DNA of 64,000 bases from Arboricoccus pini. GTDB taxonomy: Bacteria > Pseudomonadota > Alphaproteobacteria > Geminicoccales > Geminicoccaceae. Of this stretch, positions 9,606 through 63,554 are shown in pieces. Every line of letters starts with the position of its first letter. Position 1 is the stretch's first letter. Position numbers and translations under genes: made by a program. Location: NCBI RefSeq assembly GCF_900187945.1, contig NZ_FYEH01000017.1, forward strand, positions 1 to 64,000, in the 5' to 3' direction. The notes beneath the pieces were generated by a model. That model searched no databases, was not told the origin of the DNA, and saw nothing but the letters and a program-made list of their open reading frames with translations.

Positions 9606-12600
9606 CTACCATTTGTAGCGCAGGCCCAAGGTACCGTTCAGCCCGTAGCTGTCGCCAGGATTGGCAAGGCTCGTATCGACGCCGGCCTCGGCATAGAGCG
9701 CGTAGCGGCCATCGGCCCAGCTGACAGAACCGCCGAGGCCTACACCACCCCAGAGGCGCTCATTGTCGTTGGCAAGGTTGGTGCCCGACACGTCCACCTT
9801 AACCCCGTCCAGCATCTCATAATAGAGATTCGAGATCCCATAGAGATGGACCTTGCCGGTACGGCCGTCCGGCTGCTTCCACGCGCTCTCGTAATCAGCC
9901 GCAAGGCCAAGGCGGCTGTTCAGGCTGGATGCCTGGCGCCGCTCGACCTTGGCGCCGAAGGAATCGCTGAAGCTGTCGAAATCGACGCTCGAGAAGGGAA
10001 GCTGCACCTGGGGCGTCAGCGTCCAGCTGTCGTTCAGGCGAATCCGCTTACCCGTCTCGAGGCTGAGGCCGTAGCCAAAGCCGTCGTTGCCGCTGGCCAT
10101 ATTGCGGCCGAGCGTGTCGGAATGCAGGTCGCTGTCGTAGCGGGTGAGCTGGCCCTGACCATCAACATAGACGCCGTCTTGCCCGTACCAGGTCAAGGTA
10201 CCGCCGAAACCATAGCCCTTGACGTCGATCTTACCGTCGCCGTTGAAGGACCGGATGTCGGCCGTCAGCGTGCCGTAATGGACGTTGACGCCGCCGATCA
10301 GCTGACCAGCCGTGCCTTCCCACAAGCGGGTATCCAGACCGCCCTGAAAACGCCAGAGATCCTGGGTATACTCGCTGTCGCTGGTCGAACTGCGGGGGTC
10401 GATCCGCGAATGGCCGGCCTCGACCCGCGCCCATGCGCCCTGGCCCTCGACGAGCGGCGTGGCGGCGGTGCCGTCGCTCTGCCCGTCGCCGTCGTCCTCT
10501 GCTGCGGGCGTGCTCGTCACCCAATAGCGATTGCCCACGCGCTGTTGCAGCGTCGGCATCTTGTTGAGCGTCAAAAGAGCCTGACCATAGACCTCATACA
10601 GGGGAACACCCGGCTGATAGAGCGGCTTGCCAGACGACGAATCGCCATTGCCGCCGCTCCCAGTCGAGGTGCCTGTTTCGGTTGTGTCCGCGTCGGCCGT
10701 CAGCGAGGTGGAGCGCAGATACCAGTCGCCGTCGCCTGGTGCCGCCGGCGATCCCTGCACCAGGGAGTAGGCATAGGCGCCGGCGACGATGGCCGGCCGG
10801 CCGGTCTTGGCGTTGTAGTCGCCAAGCAGGGTGAAGCTTCCGTTCGAGGCGCCGTCCACATCGATCAGGCGAATGCCCTGGTTTGTCTCGGCGCCCGTGC
10901 CACCGACATTGGTGACCCGCACGTAGGTGCTGCCCGCGGTATCGCCCGTGACATGCAAAAGATCGGTGGGCGAGTTGTCGCCGTCCAGCCGGCTCTTCAT
11001 CGCAAGCAGGCCGCCCTGCCCTTCGTAGCTGCCGGCCACGAGCCGCGTGCCCAGGGCGCCATTGCCCCATTGCACCTCGCCCGCATTGACCACGCCGCCG
11101 ACGTTCTGGTCATTATCCATGAGCGCGACCAGCGCACCTGGCGAAATTGCGTAGACCGAGGCAGGGCTGAATGTCCCGGGTGCTCCGGCCTGTAGCTCGC
11201 CCGCCTCGACCCTTGTGATGCCGCTATAGGTGTTGGCGGCCGTGGTGACGAGCCGGCCTGTGTCGGCCTTGGTCAAAGCGCCTGGACCCGTCATGACGCC
11301 CTCATAGACGAGCGTCGTCCCGGCTACCGGTGCCAGGGTTCCCCCACCAGCGGCGAGGGTGGCAGCCCGGCTCGTCGTCAGGTCGACCGTGGTGCGCAGG
11401 CCGCCACCATCGAAGGTGATGCCGCCGCTGCTGGCGCCCAGTGCATTGTCGGCGGCGATGGCGATCATGCCTTCCTTGATCGTGGTCCCGCCCGAATAGC
11501 TGTTGCCGAGACCTGCAGCCGGTGCCAGCGTCAACGTGCCGCCGCCGGTCTTCTCGACGGCGCCCGAGCCCACGATTTGACCGACATAGGTGCCATCATC
11601 GGGCTGTGCGAACCGAACGAGCCCGTTATTCTGGATATTGTTCGTATTGTCCGCAGCGTTGGTCTTGGCCGGCAGGTTTTGCGCGCGCCCCTCCAGCGTC
11701 CCATCCGGGTCGACGACGACGACGACGCTAAAGTCCTCATTGTTGCCGCTCAGCGCCAGCGTGCCCTGCCGCACATCGACCGTGGTAAAGCCCTCAAGGC
11801 TACCAGTGACAGTCCAGCGGCCATCGCCCTGCTTCGTCAGGTTCGGAAAATTGGTGACATAGCCCGCGAGCGTGCCGGCCGAGCCGGCCTCGCCCTGCAA
11901 ATAGAGATTATTGACCCCGCCGCCGCCGTCGACCACGCCGGTGACAAGTGAGTTTGGCTCGAAATAAAGGTCGTCATCACCATCGCCAAAATTCAAATCG
12001 CCCAGGACTTTGGCACCGGCGCGATTATAGAAGACGATGCCGGCCGCGGCATTCGTGCCGATGATGTAGCCCTTCCCGCTCGACCGCTGCAGCGTGCCGT
12101 AATTGTCCAGGATATTCTTCGTTCCAGTCTGCTCGTCCTGGAACCAGACCGCCCCGCCCGGACCGCCTTCGATAACGCCATAGTTGATGATCTTATTGCC
12201 GTAGCCATGCACGTTCACCCCTTCGTCGAACGGGTTCGATCCATTAGCGACGACTTTACCGGTCGATGTAACGACGATCGTACTATTTGAATTGGCCTCT
12301 ATCGTATTGATGCCGCTGCCATAATTCCCCATGCCTGTATCCGCGGTCGTGCGAACGGTGCCGCTGACTGTCACCGAAGCACCGTCGCCCAGGCTGATCG
12401 CCGTTACATCCTTCGTATCGACAGTGGCACCATCTTGAACGATAACGGTTTTTCCGTCGTCCCCTCGACCCGTACCAATGGTCGTGGTCCATGGATTCGT
12501 CCCAGCCGAGCTGCAGGTCGTCGTCGAGCCCGACTCGACGCAGTCCGCCCGGACCGGCTGTGCGGCCAGCACGCCGATCGATGAGATCGCAAGTCCGAGG

Positions 12601-12641
12601 CCGCGACGAATCGAGCGGCCGCCAGCAATCAAATAAACCAT
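9606..12641 (-). CDS. Type Va autotransporter, pertactin-like
   Basis: 1011 aa. A basic N-terminus and hydrophobic core end in an AxA-like site (PVRADC, near residue 32), giving a Sec signal peptide. Residues about 33-730 are a Gly/Thr/Asn-rich beta-helical passenger. It contains autotransporter-associated beta-strand repeats such as GGTTIKEGMIAIAADNALGA and GSGAVEKTGGGTLTLAP. Residues about 735-1011 form the autotransporter barrel, ending in the aromatic LRYKW needed for BAM-mediated insertion. The passenger would sit at the cell surface, probably for adhesion or biofilm formation; I see no protease or lipase triad. A short GAC-triplet run near 11713 encodes a poly-Val tract. The gene is monocistronic. 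Confidence 0.9.
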   Translation of the reverse strand: MVYLIAGGRSIRRGLGLAISSIGVLAAQPVRADCVESGSTTTCSSAGTNPWTTTIGTGRGDDGKTVIVQDGATVDTKDVTAISLGDGASVTVSGTVRTTADTGMGNYGSGINTIEANSNSTIVVTSTGKVVANGSNPFDEGVNVHGYGNKIINYGVIEGGPGGAVWFQDEQTGTKNILDNYGTLQRSSGKGYIIGTNAAAGIVFYNRAGAKVLGDLNFGDGDDDLYFEPNSLVTGVVDGGGGVNNLYLQGEAGSAGTLAGYVTNFPNLTKQGDGRWTVTGSLEGFTTVDVRQGTLALSGNNEDFSVVVVVDPDGTLEGRAQNLPAKTNAADNTNNIQNNGLVRFAQPDDGTYVGQIVGSGAVEKTGGGTLTLAPAAGLGNSYSGGTTIKEGMIAIAADNALGASSGGITFDGGGLRTTVDLTTSRAATLAAGGGTLAPVAGTTLVYEGVMTGPGALTKADTGRLVTTAANTYSGITRVEAGELQAGAPGTFSPASVYAISPGALVALMDNDQNVGGVVNAGEVQWGNGALGTRLVAGSYEGQGGLLAMKSRLDGDNSPTDLLHVTGDTAGSTYVRVTNVGGTGAETNQGIRLIDVDGASNGSFTLLGDYNAKTGRPAIVAGAYAYSLVQGSPAAPGDGDWYLRSTSLTADADTTETGTSTGSGGNGDSSSGKPLYQPGVPLYEVYGQALLTLNKMPTLQQRVGNRYWVTSTPAAEDDGDGQSDGTAATPLVEGQGAWARVEAGHSRIDPRSSTSDSEYTQDLWRFQGGLDTRLWEGTAGQLIGGVNVHYGTLTADIRSFNGDGKIDVKGYGFGGTLTWYGQDGVYVDGQGQLTRYDSDLHSDTLGRNMASGNDGFGYGLSLETGKRIRLNDSWTLTPQVQLPFSSVDFDSFSDSFGAKVERRQASSLNSRLGLAADYESAWKQPDGRTGKVHLYGISNLYYEMLDGVKVDVSGTNLANDNERLWGGVGLGGSVSWADGRYALYAEAGVDTSLANPGDSYGLNGTLGLRYKW

Positions 12642-23932: not shown

Positions 23933-24877
23933 CTAGAGCGGCAGACGGACGACCCTGCCACGCGGCGCAACGGCGGGACGCGACGGCCTGAGCTCCACTC
24001 CGCGCTCATCCACGTCGATCTCAGCTTCGGGATAGACGGCAACAGCCTCGGCTAGCGCTTCCTTGAAACGCCGGCGAAAATCCCGCTCGCGGGTATATTC
24101 CGCCCCGAACTGCGCCTGGAGCGGTTTCCAGCCGACAATGGTCGGCTTCTTGATCGCGTGCAGCCGGTAGACCAGCCAGACATAGAGATCGATCACCAGC
24201 GGCTGGTTGCTGATGGCACGCAAAGCCGGCTCCCAAAGCGGCACGGGATGCGCCTTCAGGGCCTGGAAGAACGAATCCGTAAGCTCGATTTCGTCTTCCC
24301 AGAGACTTCCTTGATCGGGCTCGCGTGGCTGCGGGATGCTCATCATGCCGTCGATGATGTTCTCGCGCTTGAACCCTTCGGTGCCGTTGTCGCCGCGCCA
24401 AGCGATGGTCATGCGGCAGGCACTGATGCGATTGGCCTGCTCCCGGACGGCCGTGTAACTTTCGCCGCCGATGGCGATGCCAAGGCGGCCCAGCCACGCC
24501 CGCATGGAGCGGCCGATCTCGACGCGACGCGAATTGGTACGAATAGCCTCGGTGCAGAGATAGAGCAGGATCATGCGGGCCCGCGCTCCATAGGGGATGC
24601 CGTAGAAAACCGGCTGGCCCTGGCGGATGATCTTGCCGGGCTCGATCATCAGGCTGAACCGCCCGTTCTCGCGCAGCCATTCCCTCTGTTCGTCCTTGGG
24701 GCGCTTGTGTGGTAGCGAGGTCATGCAAAAGCCGGCATAGGTGATGCCCAGCTGATCGCTCTCCTCGCCCAGGACTCGCGCGGCCAGGTCGACGACGCGC
24801 CGCTCCTCGGGAGTCTGGGCTTTGGCCCGCGCTGACTCCAGGCCTTCGCGGATGACGAGCTCGTGGACCGCGCCCAT
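23933..24877 (-). CDS. repA: Plasmid replication initiator RepA
   Basis: 314 aa, matching the 'plasmid encoded RepA protein' family found on alphaproteobacterial plasmids. Recognisable stretches are GITYAGFCMTSLPHKRP, GIPYGARARMILLYLCTEA, RSMRAWLGRLGIAIGG and VIDLYVWLVYRLHAIKKP. This initiator should bind the iterons that begin 69 bp upstream of its start and load the host replication machinery. The start is ATG 24877. It reads away from the iterons, and parB and parA lie beyond them in the same direction. A fragment of a second relative lies at 59474-59722. Family assignment is by recalled motifs. Confidence 0.88.
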   Translation of the reverse strand: MGAVHELVIREGLESARAKAQTPEERRVVDLAARVLGEESDQLGITYAGFCMTSLPHKRPKDEQREWLRENGRFSLMIEPGKIIRQGQPVFYGIPYGARARMILLYLCTEAIRTNSRRVEIGRSMRAWLGRLGIAIGGESYTAVREQANRISACRMTIAWRGDNGTEGFKRENIIDGMMSIPQPREPDQGSLWEDEIELTDSFFQALKAHPVPLWEPALRAISNQPLVIDLYVWLVYRLHAIKKPTIVGWKPLQAQFGAEYTRERDFRRRFKEALAEAVAVYPEAEIDVDERGVELRPSRPAVAPRGRVVRLPL

Positions 24878-24946
24878 GGCAGCTTACCTGACTATATTCT
24901 TCCTCCAACGTCCACGAAGCTTAACAGCCCTTCCCTCGTCGTCCAA

Positions 24947-25097
24947 CATGGGTTCTTGTCGCGCACAGGCTCATCCCATGAGATCTTGTCGCGCTACTTT
25001 TCCCGTGGGTTCCTGTCGCGGCAAGGCTGGGGTGTTGTCGCGGATACCATGGGGCCTTGTCGCGGGCACATACCCTGCCCGCTGGGGTCTTGTCGCG
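24947..25097 (+). repeat. Iteron array, putative plasmid origin (oriV)
   Basis: Six direct 17-bp repeats with consensus CATGGGGTCTTGTCGCG lie at 24947-24963, 24977-24993, 25004-25020, 25026-25042, 25048-25064 and 25081-25097. The TGTCGCG core is invariant; the first ten positions vary slightly. Start-to-start spacing is 30, 27, 22, 22 and 33. The array sits just upstream of repA, and AT-rich DNA follows at 25100-25170, a candidate melting region. I did not find a good DnaA box. Iterons beside the initiator gene are the classic RepA-binding origin and copy-control element. Confidence 0.9.
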
Positions 25098-27053: not shown

Positions 27054-28073
27054 CTATTCCTCGTCCTCGGCGACCTCGGCATAGAGTGAGGGGATGCGCG
27101 CGGCGAGGCGGCGGATGACGCGTTCGTCGAGACCGGGCTGGAAGCGAAAGACCAACTGACTGCCCGAGCGGGAGAGGCGACCGTAGCGGCGACCCTGCCG
27201 ATCGCGGATGAGGGTTCCATCCTTGTCTCCGGCAGTGGGTTGGGCGCCGTTGCCAAGCAGCCGGATCAGGTGCCGGGCCCTGGTCGTCGCATTGCCCTTG
27301 AGTGCACGCATGGCCTCGGCGTCAGCCTCGCTCAAGCTTCCTCCATGACGCTGGAGGACCGCTAGCAATTGCTTGCCGACACCGATGGAGAGATCGCGGG
27401 GATCGCCCAACATTTCCAGCACGTTCTCGGGGATATCGGCCAGGGCGGCCACATTGCTGACCTGTTGCGGCGTGACGCCCAAGAGCGCTGCCAATTCCGT
27501 GCGCTGGAAAAGGCCGGCTTTCAGCAGCCTTCGATAATGACGGGCTTTCTCAAGCGGCGACAGATCGATCCGCTGGGCGTTTTCGATCAGCATCTGGGCC
27601 ACCAGGCCCTGCTCGTCGAGCGTAACAATGACGGCGCGCACCGGGCGCCCCAGCGCCCGGCAGGCATGCACCCGTCGATGGCCAAAGACGATCTCGTAGC
27701 GCCCATCCTTGCCCTGGCGCAGGGCCGCGGGCGTGATCTGTCCATTGGCGGCGATTGACTGGCGAAGTGCTAAGAACGCATCGTCGGCAAATCCGCGATC
27801 GTCGCGATCCCGCCAGCTGGTGTCGTCAATGAGCCTGGTGTCGATCTCGACCACCATGCGGCCGGTGCTGACCGCCTCCTCCATCTGTCGGCGAAGGGCC
27901 TCATAGGCCTCAGCGGTGCCGCGCGAGACTTCACGCACCTGATCGCTGATCGGCACGACACCGGAGCGCCGCCTGGCACCGCCCTGCTCAGCCCGTTCCT
28001 GGCGTAGGCCGCTGATGGCAAGGTCGATTTCGTCCGTGGCACGTGCAGTCGGCGCTTTAGTCCGGGGCGGCAT
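27054..28073 (-). CDS. parB: Partition protein ParB (RepB-like, Spo0J family)
   Basis: 339 aa. ParB-box residues GHRRVHAC are at 131-138 and IENAQRIDLSPLEKA at 163-177, the CTP-binding and clamp region. An HTH (about 192-211, TELAALLGVTPQQVSNVAAL) follows, then a C-terminal dimerisation part. It should bind centromere sites and cooperate with ParA in segregating the replicon. ATG 28073 lies 5 bases after GGGAGG and is preferred over the GTG at 28076. It overlaps the parA stop by 17 bp. The likely targets are the three GAAAATGCATTTTC palindromes downstream. Confidence 0.9.
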   Translation of the reverse strand: MPPRTKAPTARATDEIDLAISGLRQERAEQGGARRRSGVVPISDQVREVSRGTAEAYEALRRQMEEAVSTGRMVVEIDTRLIDDTSWRDRDDRGFADDAFLALRQSIAANGQITPAALRQGKDGRYEIVFGHRRVHACRALGRPVRAVIVTLDEQGLVAQMLIENAQRIDLSPLEKARHYRRLLKAGLFQRTELAALLGVTPQQVSNVAALADIPENVLEMLGDPRDLSIGVGKQLLAVLQRHGGSLSEADAEAMRALKGNATTRARHLIRLLGNGAQPTAGDKDGTLIRDRQGRRYGRLSRSGSQLVFRFQPGLDERVIRRLAARIPSLYAEVAEDEE

Positions 28074-29277
28074 CACGTCCTCCCTTGCCGCTGGCGCTGC
28101 CGGGCCACTGGGCCAGGATCAGCGCTTCGATCTCGCCGTTGACGCCGTCCAGATAGTCGCGCGCCCGCTCGTAGCTCTTTCGGTTCTTCGACACTTCCAA
28201 CTCGTAGAGCGTGCGCTTGATATTTCCCGCCATGTCCAAGGCAGTCGTGATCGCCATTTTCTGGTCAAGGAGGCGATCGGCGAAGGTCGATACCATCCAG
28301 GCTGAGATGCGCTGATGATTCCGGTCGACGGTGTTGTACTTGGTAATGAGGATGCGCACGAAATCGAGCATCTTGCTCGACCCGCCCTCATATTCCGCAA
28401 TGTCGCGTAGCGTGTCGGCCATCATGCGGAAAAAGCGCCCCGTCGAGGCGAAATCCAGCATCGAGGGCGGTGCCGGCACGATCAGTGCTGTCGATGCGAA
28501 GATGGCATTGATGCTCAGATAGCCGAGCGAGGGCGGACAGTCGCAGACCACCACGTCATAGCGATCTTCAATGGTCTTGATGCCGTCCTCGAGCAGTCGC
28601 CAGAAGCGAAAATTGGTCTGCCGCATCTGTCGCACCGGCAATTCGAACTCGATCCGGTAGAGGCCCAGATTGGCCGGGATGATGTCGAGATTGGTCCAAT
28701 AGGTCGGACGGATCAGCGAGGCGAGGCTGTCGACGTCGCCGCGCAAAAAGGGATAGAGCGTTTCGGCCTCGCTGAAATCGTCGTCCGGCTGGAAACCGAA
28801 CTGCGTCGTAGCCGAGGCTTGGCTATCGAGGTCGAGCAGCAGTACTTTATAGCCCTTAAAGGCCAGGAATTGCGCCAGATGGACGGCCGTCGTCGTTTTG
28901 GCTGCGCCCCCTTTGAAGTTCGAGAGCGTGACGACCTGGAGCTTGTCCCCTCGCTCGCGGCGTCGGCCCACGCGGTAGCGGTCATCCCCGGTCTTCAAGA
29001 GGAGATGAGCGCGGATTCGGTTGACTTCCTCAAGCGTGAAGCCGCGCTGGGTCTTGCCGATGGGCTGACCCTTTGGAACGTCCTCCTCCTCGAGCACCAG
29101 CCGACGCAGATAGGAATCCGAAATCCCCAAAAGCCTTGCGGCCTCGCGCGTAGGCAAGAGCCGCAGCCGCTTCTCGCGATGCGGCTTGTTGTCGATCTCG
29201 ATGATCCGCCTTTGGACTGCCTCCGATAATTCGGCATAATCCTCAAAGGCGGCGATGAGGTCGACGGCGTCGCTCAT
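28057..29277 (-). CDS. parA: Partition ATPase ParA with N-terminal MerR-like HTH
   Basis: 406 aa from ATG 29277; the frame is open further upstream but that part contains an iteron-like repeat and is not protein-like. Residues about 40-95 form a MerR-like winged HTH (TREAARLLGISDSYLRRLV), usual for large plasmid ParA/RepA proteins that repress their own promoter. The deviant Walker A KGGAAKTT is at 122-129, and Walker B reads DVVVCDCPPSLGYLS. Together with ParB it positions replicon copies by ATP-dependent binding to nucleoid DNA. An iteron-like 17-mer lies about 120 bp upstream, so RepA may also influence this promoter. Confidence 0.92.
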   Translation of the reverse strand: MSDAVDLIAAFEDYAELSEAVQRRIIEIDNKPHREKRLRLLPTREAARLLGISDSYLRRLVLEEEDVPKGQPIGKTQRGFTLEEVNRIRAHLLLKTGDDRYRVGRRRERGDKLQVVTLSNFKGGAAKTTTAVHLAQFLAFKGYKVLLLDLDSQASATTQFGFQPDDDFSEAETLYPFLRGDVDSLASLIRPTYWTNLDIIPANLGLYRIEFELPVRQMRQTNFRFWRLLEDGIKTIEDRYDVVVCDCPPSLGYLSINAIFASTALIVPAPPSMLDFASTGRFFRMMADTLRDIAEYEGGSSKMLDFVRILITKYNTVDRNHQRISAWMVSTFADRLLDQKMAITTALDMAGNIKRTLYELEVSKNRKSYERARDYLDGVNGEIEALILAQWPGSASGKGGRDAAPD

Positions 29278-29393
29278 CAGGCTGGCTTTCTTTCGTTTCT
29301 CCTCAACGAACACGCTTAAACGAGAAAACGCAATAAGTCGATAAAATCCGTGCATGGAGAGAGACGGCCGGGTGTCGGTGTGTCCCGCCCTCC

Positions 29394-29410
29394 ATTGGGG
29401 TCTTGTCGCA
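29394..29410 (+). repeat. Seventh iteron-like repeat, upstream of parA
   Basis: ATTGGGGTCTTGTCGCA differs from the iteron consensus at three of 17 positions and is in the same orientation as the oriV copies, 4.3 kb away. It lies in the parA/antitoxin intergenic region, about 117 bp before parA. Confidence 0.65.
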
Positions 29411-29441
29411 TCCACGACTCTTGCCGTGCAAGCGGCGTGAA

Positions 29442-58184: not shown

Positions 58185-59366
58185 ATGATGCTGAGTGCCA
58201 CCAACGTCGTGAAAGCCAAGTTGATCAATCGCTGGCTCGTTTTCGATACGATTCGGAGGGAGAGCGGCATCGCCCGCGCCGGCATTGCGACGAGCACCGG
58301 CCTCTCCAAGCAGGCGATCTCCGACCTTGTCGACGAGTTGATTGCACTTGGGCTGATCAAGGAGAGCAAATCCGCCGAGCGGCGGGTGGGCAAGCCTCCT
58401 ACGCCTTTATGCATTAACCCGGAGGGGGCCTACGCGCTGGGGTTTCACGTCGATGTAGGGCAGATGTCGGCGATCGTCGCCAACCTTGCGGGCGACGTAC
58501 TGTGCCGCCGGGATCAGTCCTTGAACGATCTCGAACCGGAGCGGGCTGTCACCGAACTCTTCGCGGCCGCCAAGGCATTGATACGCGAGGTCAAAATCCC
58601 TAGGGATCGCTTCCTCGGCATCGGTCTCGCCACCCCGGGCCCGTTCGGCGTGGCCGGCCTCAGCCCGCCTCGCCTACCAGGCTGGGACGGTTTGCGCCTC
58701 AGGACCTTGCTGCACGAGGCCAGCGGCTTTCCGGTCTCGCTCAGCAATGACGGTCAGTGCGCCACCATCGCCGAATGGCGCTTTGGCGATGCCGCCCGCG
58801 GCCTGACCCATTTCGTCTATGTCTATTTCGGCATCGGCATGGGTAGCGGCGTCATGATCAATAGCGCCATCTTCGGCGGGGCCAGCGGCAATGCAGGCGA
58901 GCTCGGCCATCTGACCGTGGTTCCGGGCGGTCATGAATGCATCTGCGGTAAACGCGGTTGCCTTGAGACCTATGTCTCCGTTGATGCCGCGATCCGCCAC
59001 CTCTCGGCCGAGGGCATCGAGGTGGCATCGCCGGCAGCCTTCGCCGCCACCTTCGACGACAGTCATCCATTGATCAGCAGCTGGATCGGCGCCGGCGTCG
59101 AGCCTTTCCGCAACGCCTTGAACGCACTCGAAAACCTATTCGACCCGCAGACGATCATGATCGGCGGCAACGCGCCGGACTGGCTGATCGAGGTCTTCAT
59201 GGCTAAGGCCGAGCCGCTTTTGCCTTCGGTCGGCCGCATCGAGCGCACCCTGCCGCGCATCATCCGCAGCGATCTGGGCGTCGATGCGGTGGTTCGCGGT
59301 GCTGCCGTACTGCCGCTTCTTACTACTCTCAATCCGCAATATCGCGAACTGAACCCACATGCCTGA
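58185..59366 (+). CDS. ROK family transcriptional regulator (NagC/Mlc-like)
   Basis: 393 aa. The N-terminal HTH (about 20-70) contains GIATSTGLSKQAISDLVDELI. The ROK sugar-binding domain contains GIGLATPGPFGVAG, and the signature GGASGNAGELGHLTV precedes a zinc-binding CICGKRGCLETY. The kinase-type DGxGT phosphate loop is not evident, as expected for a regulator rather than a sugar kinase. It is divergent from the ABC/aminotransferase operon with 118 bp between starts; AGTCA and TGACT arms at 58126-58153 may be part of the operator. Confidence 0.88.
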   Translation: MMLSATNVVKAKLINRWLVFDTIRRESGIARAGIATSTGLSKQAISDLVDELIALGLIKESKSAERRVGKPPTPLCINPEGAYALGFHVDVGQMSAIVANLAGDVLCRRDQSLNDLEPERAVTELFAAAKALIREVKIPRDRFLGIGLATPGPFGVAGLSPPRLPGWDGLRLRTLLHEASGFPVSLSNDGQCATIAEWRFGDAARGLTHFVYVYFGIGMGSGVMINSAIFGGASGNAGELGHLTVVPGGHECICGKRGCLETYVSVDAAIRHLSAEGIEVASPAAFAATFDDSHPLISSWIGAGVEPFRNALNALENLFDPQTIMIGGNAPDWLIEVFMAKAEPLLPSVGRIERTLPRIIRSDLGVDAVVRGAAVLPLLTTLNPQYRELNPHA

Positions 59367-59473
59367 ACTGTCGACTAGGGCCGACGATCCTCAATGATTC
59401 TACCATTCGCCATACGGATGATCCGGTCGGCGACCATCTTTGACACTGGCGTTTCGAAGGGGTTCAGGCATGA

Positions 59474-59722
59474 CGACTCGACCGTCTGGTTGCCGACGGC
59501 CAAAAGAGCATCGAGCTCTGGTGCGGCCGCTGCCGCCAGCGCAATCGCAACATCCGGGCGGGCACACCGCATGTCGTCCTCGGCAGCTCGATGCGGCAAT
59601 GGCTGCTCTCCATGGGGGTCAAGATCGGCGGCGCCAATTACAAGGCAGTCGCCGAACAGACCCGCCGAATCGAGCAAAGCGTCATCCGCTTCGAATGCCG
59701 GACGCACGAAGGTGCGAGCTAA
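59474..59722 (+). pseudogene. Fragment of a second RepA-like initiator gene
   Basis: An open stretch between in-frame stops (TGA 59471, TAA 59720) with no proper start. Its middle part, SSMRQWLLSMGVKIGG followed by ANYKAVAEQTRRIEQS, lines up without gaps with RepA (23933-24877) residues about 123-153 (RSMRAWLGRLGIAIGG, then ESYTAVREQANRISAC). About half of the residues are identical or similar. RepA is 314 aa and only about 80 codons remain here, so this is a remnant of another replicon's repA. Confidence 0.65.
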
Positions 59723-60071
59723 TGGCAAGATCATATCATCCGCGGCCGACTGGATCCGGTCGAGGGATGTCTAAGTTGCATTCCCCGTCGCTCGACTAGT
59801 TTCCATAATGTAACTTATCGAGATAATTCGCTCCATCCCCAACTTTCGCTGCCCTGGTTAGATCACCTGTCGAGACGTTCGGTTTGGCCTAGACAATCTA
59901 TGCAATGCGCGTTCCGTTTTTGCGCCGTCATAGCGGAAAATTACTTAAATTTACGCGCGGATACTAAAAGTTGACGCGCGCAAATTCCAGTGCAAATGGT
60001 TGCCCCGTTCGCCGGCGGAGCGGGGCCAGCCGGAGGATTCAAGCTGACTGGCCTCGGTGACGGGAGGAACC
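59723..60071. other. Regulatory region before the RbsBAC-type operon
   Basis: 349 bp, AT-rich from 59800 to 60000 and without a gene. It contains the 12-bp inverted repeat described separately and must hold the promoter of the operon. Confidence 0.55.
59948..59986. promoter_or_regulatory. Operator candidate AATTTaCGCGCG-N15-CGCGCGcAAATT
   Basis: Two 12-bp inverted arms (59948-59959, 59975-59986) match at 11 of 12 positions around a 15-base spacer, 86 bp upstream of the binding-protein start. It is a plausible site for the LacI protein encoded after the operon. Confidence 0.5.
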
Positions 60072-60965
60072 ATGACCTATTTTTCCAAGACCAAGACGCT
60101 GCTGATGTCGGCGGCCCTGGCACTGATAGCCGCCAGCGCGCAGGCCGAGGGCATCGGCGTTTCGCTGCTGACCCAGCAGCATCCCTTCTACAATGAGCTC
60201 GCGAAAGCGATCACCGCCGAGGCTAAGGCGCAGAACGTATCGGCCGAGATCTCGATTGCAAATCAGGATCTGAACAAGCAACTGGCCGATATCGAGGATT
60301 TCGTCGTCAAGGGCGTCGACGTGATCATCATGTCGCCCGTCGACAGCAAGGGGGCGCTCGCCGCCGTCGCTCGCGCCCAGGCCGCCAACATCAAGGTGAT
60401 CACCGTCGACGTGCCGGTCGAGGGCGCCAAGGTCGCCTCCTATATCGGCACCGACAATTTTGTGGGCGGCGAGAAGGCCGGCGAACTGATGGCCGAGCAA
60501 CTGGGCGGCAAGGGCAATATCGGCATCATCGACTACCCGCTGGTCCAGTCCGTGGTGAACCGGGTGAACGGCTTCAAGGCGGCGATCGCCAAGCATCCCG
60601 ATATGAAGATCGTCTCGATCCAGACCGGCATCACCCGCGCGGAAGCTCTGGCCGTGGCGCAGAACATGCTGCAGGCCAATCCCGACATTAACGGCATCTT
60701 CGGCTTCGGCGACGATGCGGCCCTCGCGGCCTCGGTTGCGGTGAAGTCGTCGGGCCTGTCCGGCAAGGTCAAGGTGATCGGCTTTGACGGCATGCCCGAA
60801 GCGCGCGCTGCCGTCGACAACGATCCGGACATGGTTGGCGTCATCCAGCAATATCCGGATCAGATGGGCAAGCTTGCAATCGATACCGCGATCAAGCTTG
60901 AAAAAGGCGAGAGCGTCCCAGAGAGTCAGCCCATCGTCCCAGGCGTCTACACCAAGAAGAACTAA
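60072..60965 (+). CDS. Ribose-type ABC sugar-binding protein (RbsB-like)
   Basis: 297 aa periplasmic protein. The signal peptide TLLMSAALALIAASAQA cleaves near AQA-EG. The mature two-lobed fold carries DLNKQLADIEDFVVKGVDVI, SYIGTDNFVGGEKAGELM, the hinge-region GIFGFGDDAALAA and VIGFDGMPEARAAV. It belongs to the Peripla_BP_4 (CUT2) group that binds ribose, xylose, galactofuranose or autoinducer-2. ATG 60072 follows GGGAGGA. It begins an operon with the ATPase and permease genes below. Confidence 0.92.
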   Translation: MTYFSKTKTLLMSAALALIAASAQAEGIGVSLLTQQHPFYNELAKAITAEAKAQNVSAEISIANQDLNKQLADIEDFVVKGVDVIIMSPVDSKGALAAVARAQAANIKVITVDVPVEGAKVASYIGTDNFVGGEKAGELMAEQLGGKGNIGIIDYPLVQSVVNRVNGFKAAIAKHPDMKIVSIQTGITRAEALAVAQNMLQANPDINGIFGFGDDAALAASVAVKSSGLSGKVKVIGFDGMPEARAAVDNDPDMVGVIQQYPDQMGKLAIDTAIKLEKGESVPESQPIVPGVYTKKN

Positions 60966-61077
60966 GCCTGCCATCCGGCATTCGTGTGGGGCCCGCTCAA
61001 TAGCGGGCCGCTGAATATCGTTTTGCCCGCAGCGCCTTGGACCGAGTGCAGCGCGCCAGACTTACCGGAGAATTCCC

Positions 61078-62595
61078 ATGCAGGGGCTGGCAGACGACGT
61101 GATCCTCGAGATCCGCGACGTGTCCAAGCGGTTTGGACCTGTGGTCGCGATCAAAAACATGCAGCTGAAGGTTCGCGCCGGGCGCGTACATACCATTCTG
61201 GGCGAAAACGGGGCTGGCAAGTCGACCCTGATGAAGATCCTGGCCGGCGTCCATCAGCCAAGCGGCGGCACGATCAGCCTGGCAGGCCGACCATACACGC
61301 CAGCCAATCCGCAGGATGCTGCCCGAGCCGGCCTGACCATCGTCTTCCAAGAGCTCAGCCTCTGCAGCAACCTGACCGTTGCCGAGAATATCCTGGCGAC
61401 ACGCGAGCCCACGACCGCAGGCTTCATCAACGAAAAGGCGCTGGTGCGGACGGCAGCATCATTGGTCGAGGACCTCAAGCTCCCGGTCCGCGTCACCGAC
61501 CAAGTGGGCGATCTCTCGATGGCGCAGCGCCAACTGGTCGAGATCGCCAAGGGGCTGAGCATCGAGGCCAAGGTCGTCATCCTCGACGAGCCCACCTCCT
61601 CTCTCAGCGACAGCGAGGCCGAGATCCTCTTTGAGATCATCGCCAAACTGAAGGCAAGGAACGTCGCCGTCATCTATATCTCGCACCGCATGGAAGAGAT
61701 CATGCGGCTGAGCGATGACATCACGGTCGTGCGCGATGGCAGCTATATCACCACCAAGGACAAGACCGAGACCACGATCGACGAACTGATCGCGCTGATG
61801 GTCGGTCGTGATCTCGATGAAATCTACCCGCCGCGCGAGGTGCCAGCCCCGCCTGCCAGCACGAAACCCGTGTTGGAGATCAAGGGCCTCACCCGCCAAG
61901 GCGAGTTCGAGGACGTTCATTTCGCGGTCCGGCCAGGCGAGATCTTGGGCTTTTTCGGCCTGATCGGCTCCGGCCGCTCGGAAATCATGAATACCCTCTT
62001 TGGCATGCGCAAGCCGAGCTCGGGGACGATCGCGATCGACGGCCGGGAGGTCTCGATCAATTCCGCGGCCGAGGCGATCGATCTCGGGATTGGCTTCGTT
62101 ACCGAGAACCGCAAGGAAGAGGGCCTGGTTCTTTCCCACAGCGTCGAGGTGAATATCTCGATGGTGGCCCTGGATGACTATGCCAACCGGCTGGGCTTCT
62201 TGAAGCGGCAGGCCGAGCGGCAGGATGCGCAGGGCGGCGTCGATCGCCTTGCCATCAAGACGGCCTCGCTCGAGACGGTGGCCGGTACGCTCTCGGGCGG
62301 CAATCAGCAGAAGATCGTGATTGCTAAATGGCTTCTGACCCAGGCCAAGATCCTGATCCTGGACGAGCCGACGCGTGGCGTCGATGTCGGCGCCAAATTC
62401 GAGATCTACAAGATCATCCGCCAACTGGCGGCCGACGGGGCTGCCATCCTCCTGGTCTCCTCCGAACTTCCCGAAGTCATCGGCATGAGTGACCGCGCGG
62501 TCATCATGAGCGAAGGCCGCCAGACCGCCACGGTATCGGGCGATGAAATGACCCCGGAAAAAATCATGAGCTACGCTACGGGATTTGCACAATGA
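61078..62595 (+). CDS. Ribose-type ABC ATPase with two nucleotide domains (RbsA-like)
   Basis: 505 aa with two tandem ABC modules. The first has Walker A GENGAGKST (42-50), signature LSMAQRQLVEIAKGL and LDEPTSSLSD. The second has the degenerate Walker A GLIGSGRSE usual in RbsA, with signature LSGGNQQKIVIAKWL and LDEPTRGVDVG. The EIYPPREVP linker precedes the second module. It starts 112 bp after the binding-protein stop and overlaps the permease gene by ATGA. Confidence 0.92.
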   Translation: MQGLADDVILEIRDVSKRFGPVVAIKNMQLKVRAGRVHTILGENGAGKSTLMKILAGVHQPSGGTISLAGRPYTPANPQDAARAGLTIVFQELSLCSNLTVAENILATREPTTAGFINEKALVRTAASLVEDLKLPVRVTDQVGDLSMAQRQLVEIAKGLSIEAKVVILDEPTSSLSDSEAEILFEIIAKLKARNVAVIYISHRMEEIMRLSDDITVVRDGSYITTKDKTETTIDELIALMVGRDLDEIYPPREVPAPPASTKPVLEIKGLTRQGEFEDVHFAVRPGEILGFFGLIGSGRSEIMNTLFGMRKPSSGTIAIDGREVSINSAAEAIDLGIGFVTENRKEEGLVLSHSVEVNISMVALDDYANRLGFLKRQAERQDAQGGVDRLAIKTASLETVAGTLSGGNQQKIVIAKWLLTQAKILILDEPTRGVDVGAKFEIYKIIRQLAADGAAILLVSSELPEVIGMSDRAVIMSEGRQTATVSGDEMTPEKIMSYATGFAQ

Positions 62596-63554
62596 TGAAG
62601 ATGATGGAGAACAACCCCGCCTTGGCTCGGGCGGTCAGGCAATATAGCGGCATCTTCATATCGCTCATCGTGCTCTGCGTGATCTTTTCCACCATGAGCC
62701 CGCGTTTCATGTCGGTGGCGAATTTCCTCAACGTGCTGCAGCAGGTTGCGGTCATCGCCATCGCCGCGTTCGGCATGACATGGGTCATCCTTCTGGGCGA
62801 GATCGACCTGTCGATCGGCTCCATCATCGCCGTGGCCGGCATGGTGGCGGCACAGTGTTTTGCCTTCGGGATCGGCTTTGCGCCGACGTTCCTCCTTACG
62901 CTCGCCTCAGGCGCCATTCTGGGCCTGGCCAACGGTGTCCTTACGGCGAAGTTCTTCCTGCCCTCTTTCATCGTCACGGTGGCGACGATGGGCATCTATC
63001 GCGGTCTGGTCAGCCTGCCGACCAACGGTGCTCCCGCCATGATCATGGAGCCCACCTGGACGGCGATCGGTACCAAGAGCTTTCTTGGCCTGCCGATTGT
63101 CATCTGGTTCGTGGCCGTCCTGTTCCTCTTCAACCATATCCTCTTGAGCAAGACCAAGTTCGGCCGGCGCGTCTATCTGACCGGCGGCAACCGCGAGGCA
63201 GCGCTTTATTCCGGCATCAAGGTTGACCGGCTGAAGATCATCATCTTCATGATCTCAGGCGTGATGTCGGCGATCAGCGGCATCCTCCTCTCCTCACGCC
63301 TCTTCTCGGCCCAGACCAACGCCGGAATGAGCTACGAACTCGATGCCATCGCGGCGGCCGTTCTGGGAGGCACAAGCCTGGCCGGCGGTGTCGGCACGAT
63401 GATTGGCACCATCATCGGTGCGCTCATCATCGGCGTGCTCAATAATGGCATGAACATGCTCTCGGTCCCTTATTTTTATCAGCTGATCGTCAAGGGGCTT
63501 GTCATTCTAGTGGCAGTTTATCTAGACGCCCGCTCGAAGCGTGCCAAAAAATAA
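62592..63554 (+). CDS. Ribose-type ABC permease (RbsC-like)
   Basis: 320 aa with eight to ten helices. Typical stretches are TWVILLGEIDLSIGSIIAVA, the FGRRVYLTGGNREAALYSGI loop and AAVLGGTSLAGGVGTMIGTI. Two copies should form the pore for the RbsA-like ATPase. The start overlaps the ATPase stop. A GC hairpin follows 3 bp after its stop. Confidence 0.92.
   Translation: MMKMMENNPALARAVRQYSGIFISLIVLCVIFSTMSPRFMSVANFLNVLQQVAVIAIAAFGMTWVILLGEIDLSIGSIIAVAGMVAAQCFAFGIGFAPTFLLTLASGAILGLANGVLTAKFFLPSFIVTVATMGIYRGLVSLPTNGAPAMIMEPTWTAIGTKSFLGLPIVIWFVAVLFLFNHILLSKTKFGRRVYLTGGNREAALYSGIKVDRLKIIIFMISGVMSAISGILLSSRLFSAQTNAGMSYELDAIAAAVLGGTSLAGGVGTMIGTIIGALIIGVLNNGMNMLSVPYFYQLIVKGLVILVAVYLDARSKRAKK

Follow-up and report, generated by a model that had tools for sequence, protein, structure and literature searches.

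Does the molecule represented by contig C24 carry the remains of a second replication initiator gene and, if so, how did they come to lie there? The question is raised by a short plus-strand reading frame (59474-59722; 82 codons followed by a TAA) in which the first-pass annotation had noticed a resemblance to the RepA protein encoded elsewhere on the same contig. The frame lies in the window analysed here, bases 1-64000 of C24 (86,694 bp), which belongs to a draft genome of 4,065,473 bp in 28 contigs; coordinates given without a contig name refer to this window.

The match to the local RepA is present (43% identity over residues 26-71 of the 82-residue frame, E 7.7e-7), and a better one is obtained with the RepA encoded on contig C17 (53% identity over residues 26-80, E 2e-12). 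The resemblance does not coincide with the frame as first drawn: its first 24 codons (59474-59545) are not RepA, but the homology found by profile hmmsearch and by phmmer with C17 RepA spans 59546-59770 on the plus strand. The TAA (59720-59722) falls in frame inside this segment; the alignment passes through it, and the translation continues in the same register for 16 more RepA-homologous residues, the majority of which match C17 RepA. The segment is 225 bp long (~75 codons), corresponds roughly to residues 176-249 in the frame of C17 RepA and represents the central part of a RepA_C-type initiator. The start, the N-terminal part and the C-terminal part are absent, the frame has no start codon 5' of the RepA portion, and no other part of RepA scores above 0 bits in any of the six frames of 59301-60100. 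Judged from its sequence, 59546-59770 is a broken RepA_C-type repA. We therefore retain the original description of a second repA, deprived of its start and of most of the gene and situated about 35 kb from the intact copy (23933-24877), as well as the view that this initiator has been destroyed, given the TAA inside the homology and the loss of both ends.

A fragment this short invites the objection that its resemblance to RepA is accidental, and the Pfam model alone gives that objection some footing: RepA_C (PF04796) matches the 82 residues at 13.6 bits (E 0.08), below the 26-bit cut-off, and a genome-wide search with the same model lists the four intact genes only, with the relic missing. 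We therefore turn to a family profile of 18 RepAs, comprising four from this genome (the local and C17 proteins included) and 14 from relatives, with the relic left out. The first-pass annotation had proposed a six-frame search for RepA. Run with this profile on the six frames of the window and of contig bases 60000-79999, read through stops, the search returns just two sites, the local repA (E 6e-136) and the relic (E about 1e-21), and there are no matches at E 10 in the reversed window. Within 59301-60100 the profile gives E 6e-24 (profile positions 132-203) and phmmer with C17 RepA gives E 1.4e-22, and a genome-wide alignment search recovers the relic at 59546-59761 on the plus strand (E 2.6e-20, one TAA inside, positions 124-195 of a 327-position model). 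The same annotation had agreed to treat the resemblance as chance if the best matches were unrelated to RepA; a search of the plasmid collection at E up to 1 yields 112 matching records, and all 30 of the 112 that were listed are replication protein RepA. Set against the empty reversed window, the profile score leads us to reject chance resemblance, to which we attach a negligible probability. Other searches were negative: the RepA alignment had no significant match among solved structures (best E 0.2), a related-locus search with the fragment gave 95 pattern-matching stretches with none confirmed, and the spacer DNA had no match in the plasmid collection.

Of the 18 RepAs, that of C17 is the nearest to the relic (40/72 residues identical; 82.0 bits, with the next best at 72.4). 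Identity to the local RepA is 20/47, and on this comparison we rejected the idea that the relic is a decayed copy of the local gene. By its sequence affinity the second initiator belongs to a different lineage from the resident RepA, as is looked for in a composite plasmid. Nucleotide differences between the relic and the C17 gene are distributed 28/18/43 over the three codon positions (73 codons). In a common alignment of 47 codons the third position is the most different in all 21 pairs formed by the intact RepAs and the relic, with counts of 17/9/27 for the relic and C17 RepA and 20/17/22 for the relic and the local RepA, the excess being less marked in the latter. This third-position excess suggests that the relic diverged while it was a working gene and died later.

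C24 has a resident replicon of its own. The intact local repA (23933-24877, minus strand; an open frame with a start, Pfam RepA_C 102 bits) is accompanied by five copies of an iteron-like direct repeat (24943-25097, from a repeat search), by parB (27054-28076, minus strand; ParB_N and HTH_ParB) and by parA (28057-29415, minus strand; AAA_31 and CbiA). A RepA_C initiator is present on four contigs of this one genome, each with its own direct-repeat family (24943-25097 on C24; L017, L018 and L019). The repeat unit is distinct for each intact repA, with five copies on C24 and other units on C17, C22 and C5, and we read these repeats beside the intact genes as probable iterons.

Evidence for further parts of a second replicon on C24 was sought in two ways. 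A genome-wide search with PF01656 found no second ParA-type gene on the contig, the sole C24 match being the local parA. In a tblastn search with the C17 open reading frames of at least 80 codons from 35 kb around C17 repA, the only replication or partition matches were the local parA, the local repA and the relic; the remaining matches were LysR-type and other paralogues, together with an open reading frame at the contig start. Neither search recovered a block of backbone genes from a second plasmid. C24 has no terminal overlap, and the contigs are draft and unclosed. Related open reading frames without a Pfam family occur at 7-276 of the window (minus strand), at C17:117332-118141, beside the C17 repeats, and at C17:133280-134089. 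C24 also codes, at 9606-12641 and 741-2522, for a large autotransporter and for a protein bearing RTX calcium-binding repeats.

The relic sits in a 690-bp spacer (59367-60056) between a gene for a ROK-family regulator (58185-59366) and a sugar-binding-protein gene. The latter side of the spacer is occupied by a sugar ABC operon (60057-63554) in which the stretch 60138-61500 shares 76% identity with DNA of Rhizobium plasmids, so that this region has likely been shared horizontally. The position between two transport-gene cassettes fits the earlier picture of C24 as a mosaic of independent cassettes. The spacer itself is a junction crowded with scraps. A 58-bp stretch (59473-59530) that is not RepA is shared at 81% identity with C20:48442-48499 and is fused in frame 5' of the relic; as protein (26 residues) it has no significant match among plasmids (E 5). 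Upstream of it is a weak, possible ABC-transporter ATPase tail on the minus strand (59375-59473), with E 0.3 to 6 in the eight matches listed of 31; two of these eight carry an annotated feature, in both cases an amino-acid ABC ATPase. Downstream of the relic, a 42-bp block (59777-59818) containing CATAATGTAACTTAT is 88% identical to C20:11798-11839. Searched as a check for a gene start or promoter, a pattern drawn from this block occurs in the genome at two exact sites and at a third with 3 mismatches. It is absent from the other 30 family genomes, and a related pattern has no match in the genome-contig collection. A minus-strand open reading frame (59375-59734) was discarded as a gene, having no Pfam match. 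Family matches to the ROK regulator are distant (26-38% identity), and there is consequently no orthologous spacer with which to make an empty-site comparison.

The first-pass annotation had also recommended looking for degenerate iterons near the fragment. No iteron array was found in 58800-60500; what is present is a single iteron-like 14-mer (59809-59822, plus strand), which lies 38 bp past the relic, on its downstream side, and is identical at 13/14 positions to one C17 iteron. Allowing at most one mismatch, the whole genome contains nine such sites. C17 accounts for seven of them, six among its repeats and one within its repA; the others are a site on C16 and the window site. The reversed-pattern control gives one. 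A weight matrix made from nine C17 iterons scores the window site at 20.3, within the range of the iterons themselves (19.9-25.2), the best score in 132,696 bp of other DNA from this genome being 12.1. Other results speak against a relic iteron. A scan confined to the window, tolerating up to 3 mismatches, yields a single site, against a mean of 1.8 in shuffled sequence. Within C17 repA itself, at codon 251 and directly after the residues that match the relic, there is an iteron copy with one mismatch, so that the site in the window may be a piece of repA coding sequence that has been displaced. On C17 the repeats precede repA, whereas the 14-mer lies on the downstream side of the relic. The site at 59809-59822 may accordingly be read, by its sequence, as a relic iteron, a displaced scrap of repA coding DNA or an operator-like coincidence.

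A 15-mer core, CATAATGTRASTTAT, has four exact sites in the genome (59804-59818, C17:81862-81876, C20:11825-11839 and C16:17713-17727) and none in the reversed-pattern control with one mismatch allowed (4.07 Mb). Its C17 copy lies 50 bp from a RepA relic on that contig, an association with relics that is post hoc because the pattern was widened once the C17 site was known. No RepA scrap was found near the C20:11825 and C16:17713 copies, which further weakens the iteron reading of the window site; searches around these two sites and around C16:29559, C18:85741 and C20:48452 gave negative-scoring RepA matches only. Near the C16 copy of the 15-mer there is a two-copy repeat (L061 1796-1890, C16 near 17800) which, by eye, we take to resemble a type I-E CRISPR repeat.

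The C24 relic is one of several. A search of 31 family genomes (this one and 30 others) with an alignment of 14 RepA rows gave eight matches in this genome, four of them near-complete (C22, C24, C17 and C5) and four partial. Besides the C24 relic the partial matches are at C12:223932-224162 (L056; one TAG), C8:218189-218278 (L057) and C17:81635-81811 (L058; two TGA), and these relics elsewhere are scraps from differing parts of repA. The other 30 genomes together gave 18 matches, comprising 16 near-complete genes, a single clear relic (G003:C767) and, at G003:C1008, a weak match to an open reading frame of another kind; 20 of the 31 genomes have no RepA match. The contrast between this genome and its family is only indicative, because fragmentation is greater in many of the others. 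For all four relics C17 RepA is the best of the 18 RepAs by modest margins: beside the C24 values given above, the best and next-best scores are 80.1 and 74.3 bits for C12, 51.6 and 45.8 for the first piece of C8, and 48.5 and 45.8 for the relic at 81.6 kb on C17. For the short second piece of C8, C17 RepA is level with one other of these proteins, both scoring slightly below the window relic. The C8 relic adjoins lolA and ftsK, which are chromosomal core genes. The C12 relic lies just 5' of an open stretch in which there are matches to a tyrosine recombinase and to a ParD antitoxin.

How did the relic reach C24? We consider it somewhat probable that it is the dead core of the repA of a second iteron-type replicon, a sister of that on C17, which would have arrived with the whole replicon or a large part of it by recombination at a cassette junction. 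DNA of a C17-type replicon would have recombined into the C24 plasmid by co-integration or by insertion of a large piece. The incoming initiator would then have been superfluous or harmful, since the resident module of repA, repeats and parAB already maintains the molecule, and would have been broken by a stop and by deletions until 225 bp were left. The same course was probably followed elsewhere in the genome with the same RepA type, the lolA-ftsK locus included. Both the route, co-integration, and the cause of the loss, redundancy or incompatibility, are our inference. Arrival in a large piece is favoured by the homology with its internal stop, the kinship with C17, the third-position excess, the existence of four relics, one of them beside lolA-ftsK, and the weight-matrix score of the iteron-like 14-mer, confounded as that site is. 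Against it, no second ParA-type gene, other replication match or iteron array was found on the contig, the 14-mer lies on the wrong side of the fragment by comparison with C17, and the contigs are draft. Of the replicon fusion suggested by the first-pass annotation, the second repA stands; no second ParA-type gene or iteron array was found that would bear out the fusion itself, which we regard as possible.

That no second partition gene or iteron array was found would also be expected had illegitimate recombination at a hot cassette junction captured just a few hundred base pairs of a C17-type repA, with no fusion and with a fragment that was never functional here. We rate such a capture as a substantial possibility, though less likely than not. 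The spacer does mix unrelated scraps (the 58 bp shared with C20:48442, the 42 bp shared with C20:11798 and the weak ABC-ATPase tail), and the other relics are likewise scraps from different parts of repA. Yet the presence of four relics that share one initiator type suggests that whole replicons of that type entered more than once, and the iteron-like site, if a real iteron, would mean that more than repA arrived. That the spacer is instead a misjoin, an artefact of assembly or contamination, is suggested by the draft state of the genome in 28 contigs, but it is very unlikely: the codon signal, the stop and the kinship with a RepA of the same genome fit a natural relic, the relic lies deep inside the contig and neither of two Illumina-adapter patterns occurs in the window. 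Adapter contamination had been suspected separately from a peptide near 58380 in an extended open reading frame, and was dismissed when the DNA there proved to be antisense to the ROK regulator and to match neither adapter pattern. Even harder to credit is a fragment that is still active, for instance through a short RepA-like peptide or through an antisense reading frame that tunes the C17 replicon. The 82-codon frame is open to its TAA and holds the conserved RepA core, but it has no start of its own before the homologous part, is interrupted by a stop and has unrelated DNA fused at its 5' side, and among the 26 matches in the 31 family genomes there is no similar short form, other relics aside.

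Composite plasmids in which a second replication module has been inactivated are known, and our preferred reading, a dead initiator from a second replicon, has a parallel among them. The mega-Ti plasmid of Agrobacterium AB2/73 likewise combines on one molecule a complete module and a second one, of another lineage, that is rearranged and in part deleted, but these are repABC modules and some 175 kb remains of the second plasmid, whereas here the initiator is a single-gene RepA_C protein of which 225 bp are recognised (PMC8554961). By this analogy the C24 case would be an event of the mega-Ti kind for a single-gene RepA_C initiator. Plasmid pMM259 of Martelella mediterranea is also an alphaproteobacterial plasmid fusion with more than one replication system on one replicon; both of its RepABC modules are functional, whereas the second initiator of C24 is broken (PMC5613091). 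RepA_C initiators (PF04796) on plasmids of Acetobacter, Roseomonas and Azospirillum share the core region homologous to the relic, but they are annotated replication proteins and the relic is 75 codons with a stop. Among the papers listed by our literature searches, none was on RepA_C relics in Geminicoccaceae.

A wider scheme can be put forward, which we hold to be speculative and on present evidence unlikely: C17-type replicons would have entered at least four loci (the C24 plasmid, C17, C12 and lolA-ftsK), with the initiator and origin purged every time and scraps of repA left behind, in places with relic iterons (TGTAACTTATCGAG, CATAATGTRASTTAT), charting past fusions. If this were true, repA scraps would chart which replicons were once fused. 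The family-specific profile recovers repA scraps of 30 to 77 codons that are absent from the list of the Pfam model, and such scraps can type past plasmid mixing. Occurring together in one genome of 4 Mb, the four intact initiators and the four relics offer a testable case in which replicons of a single type would have entered and been purged repeatedly.
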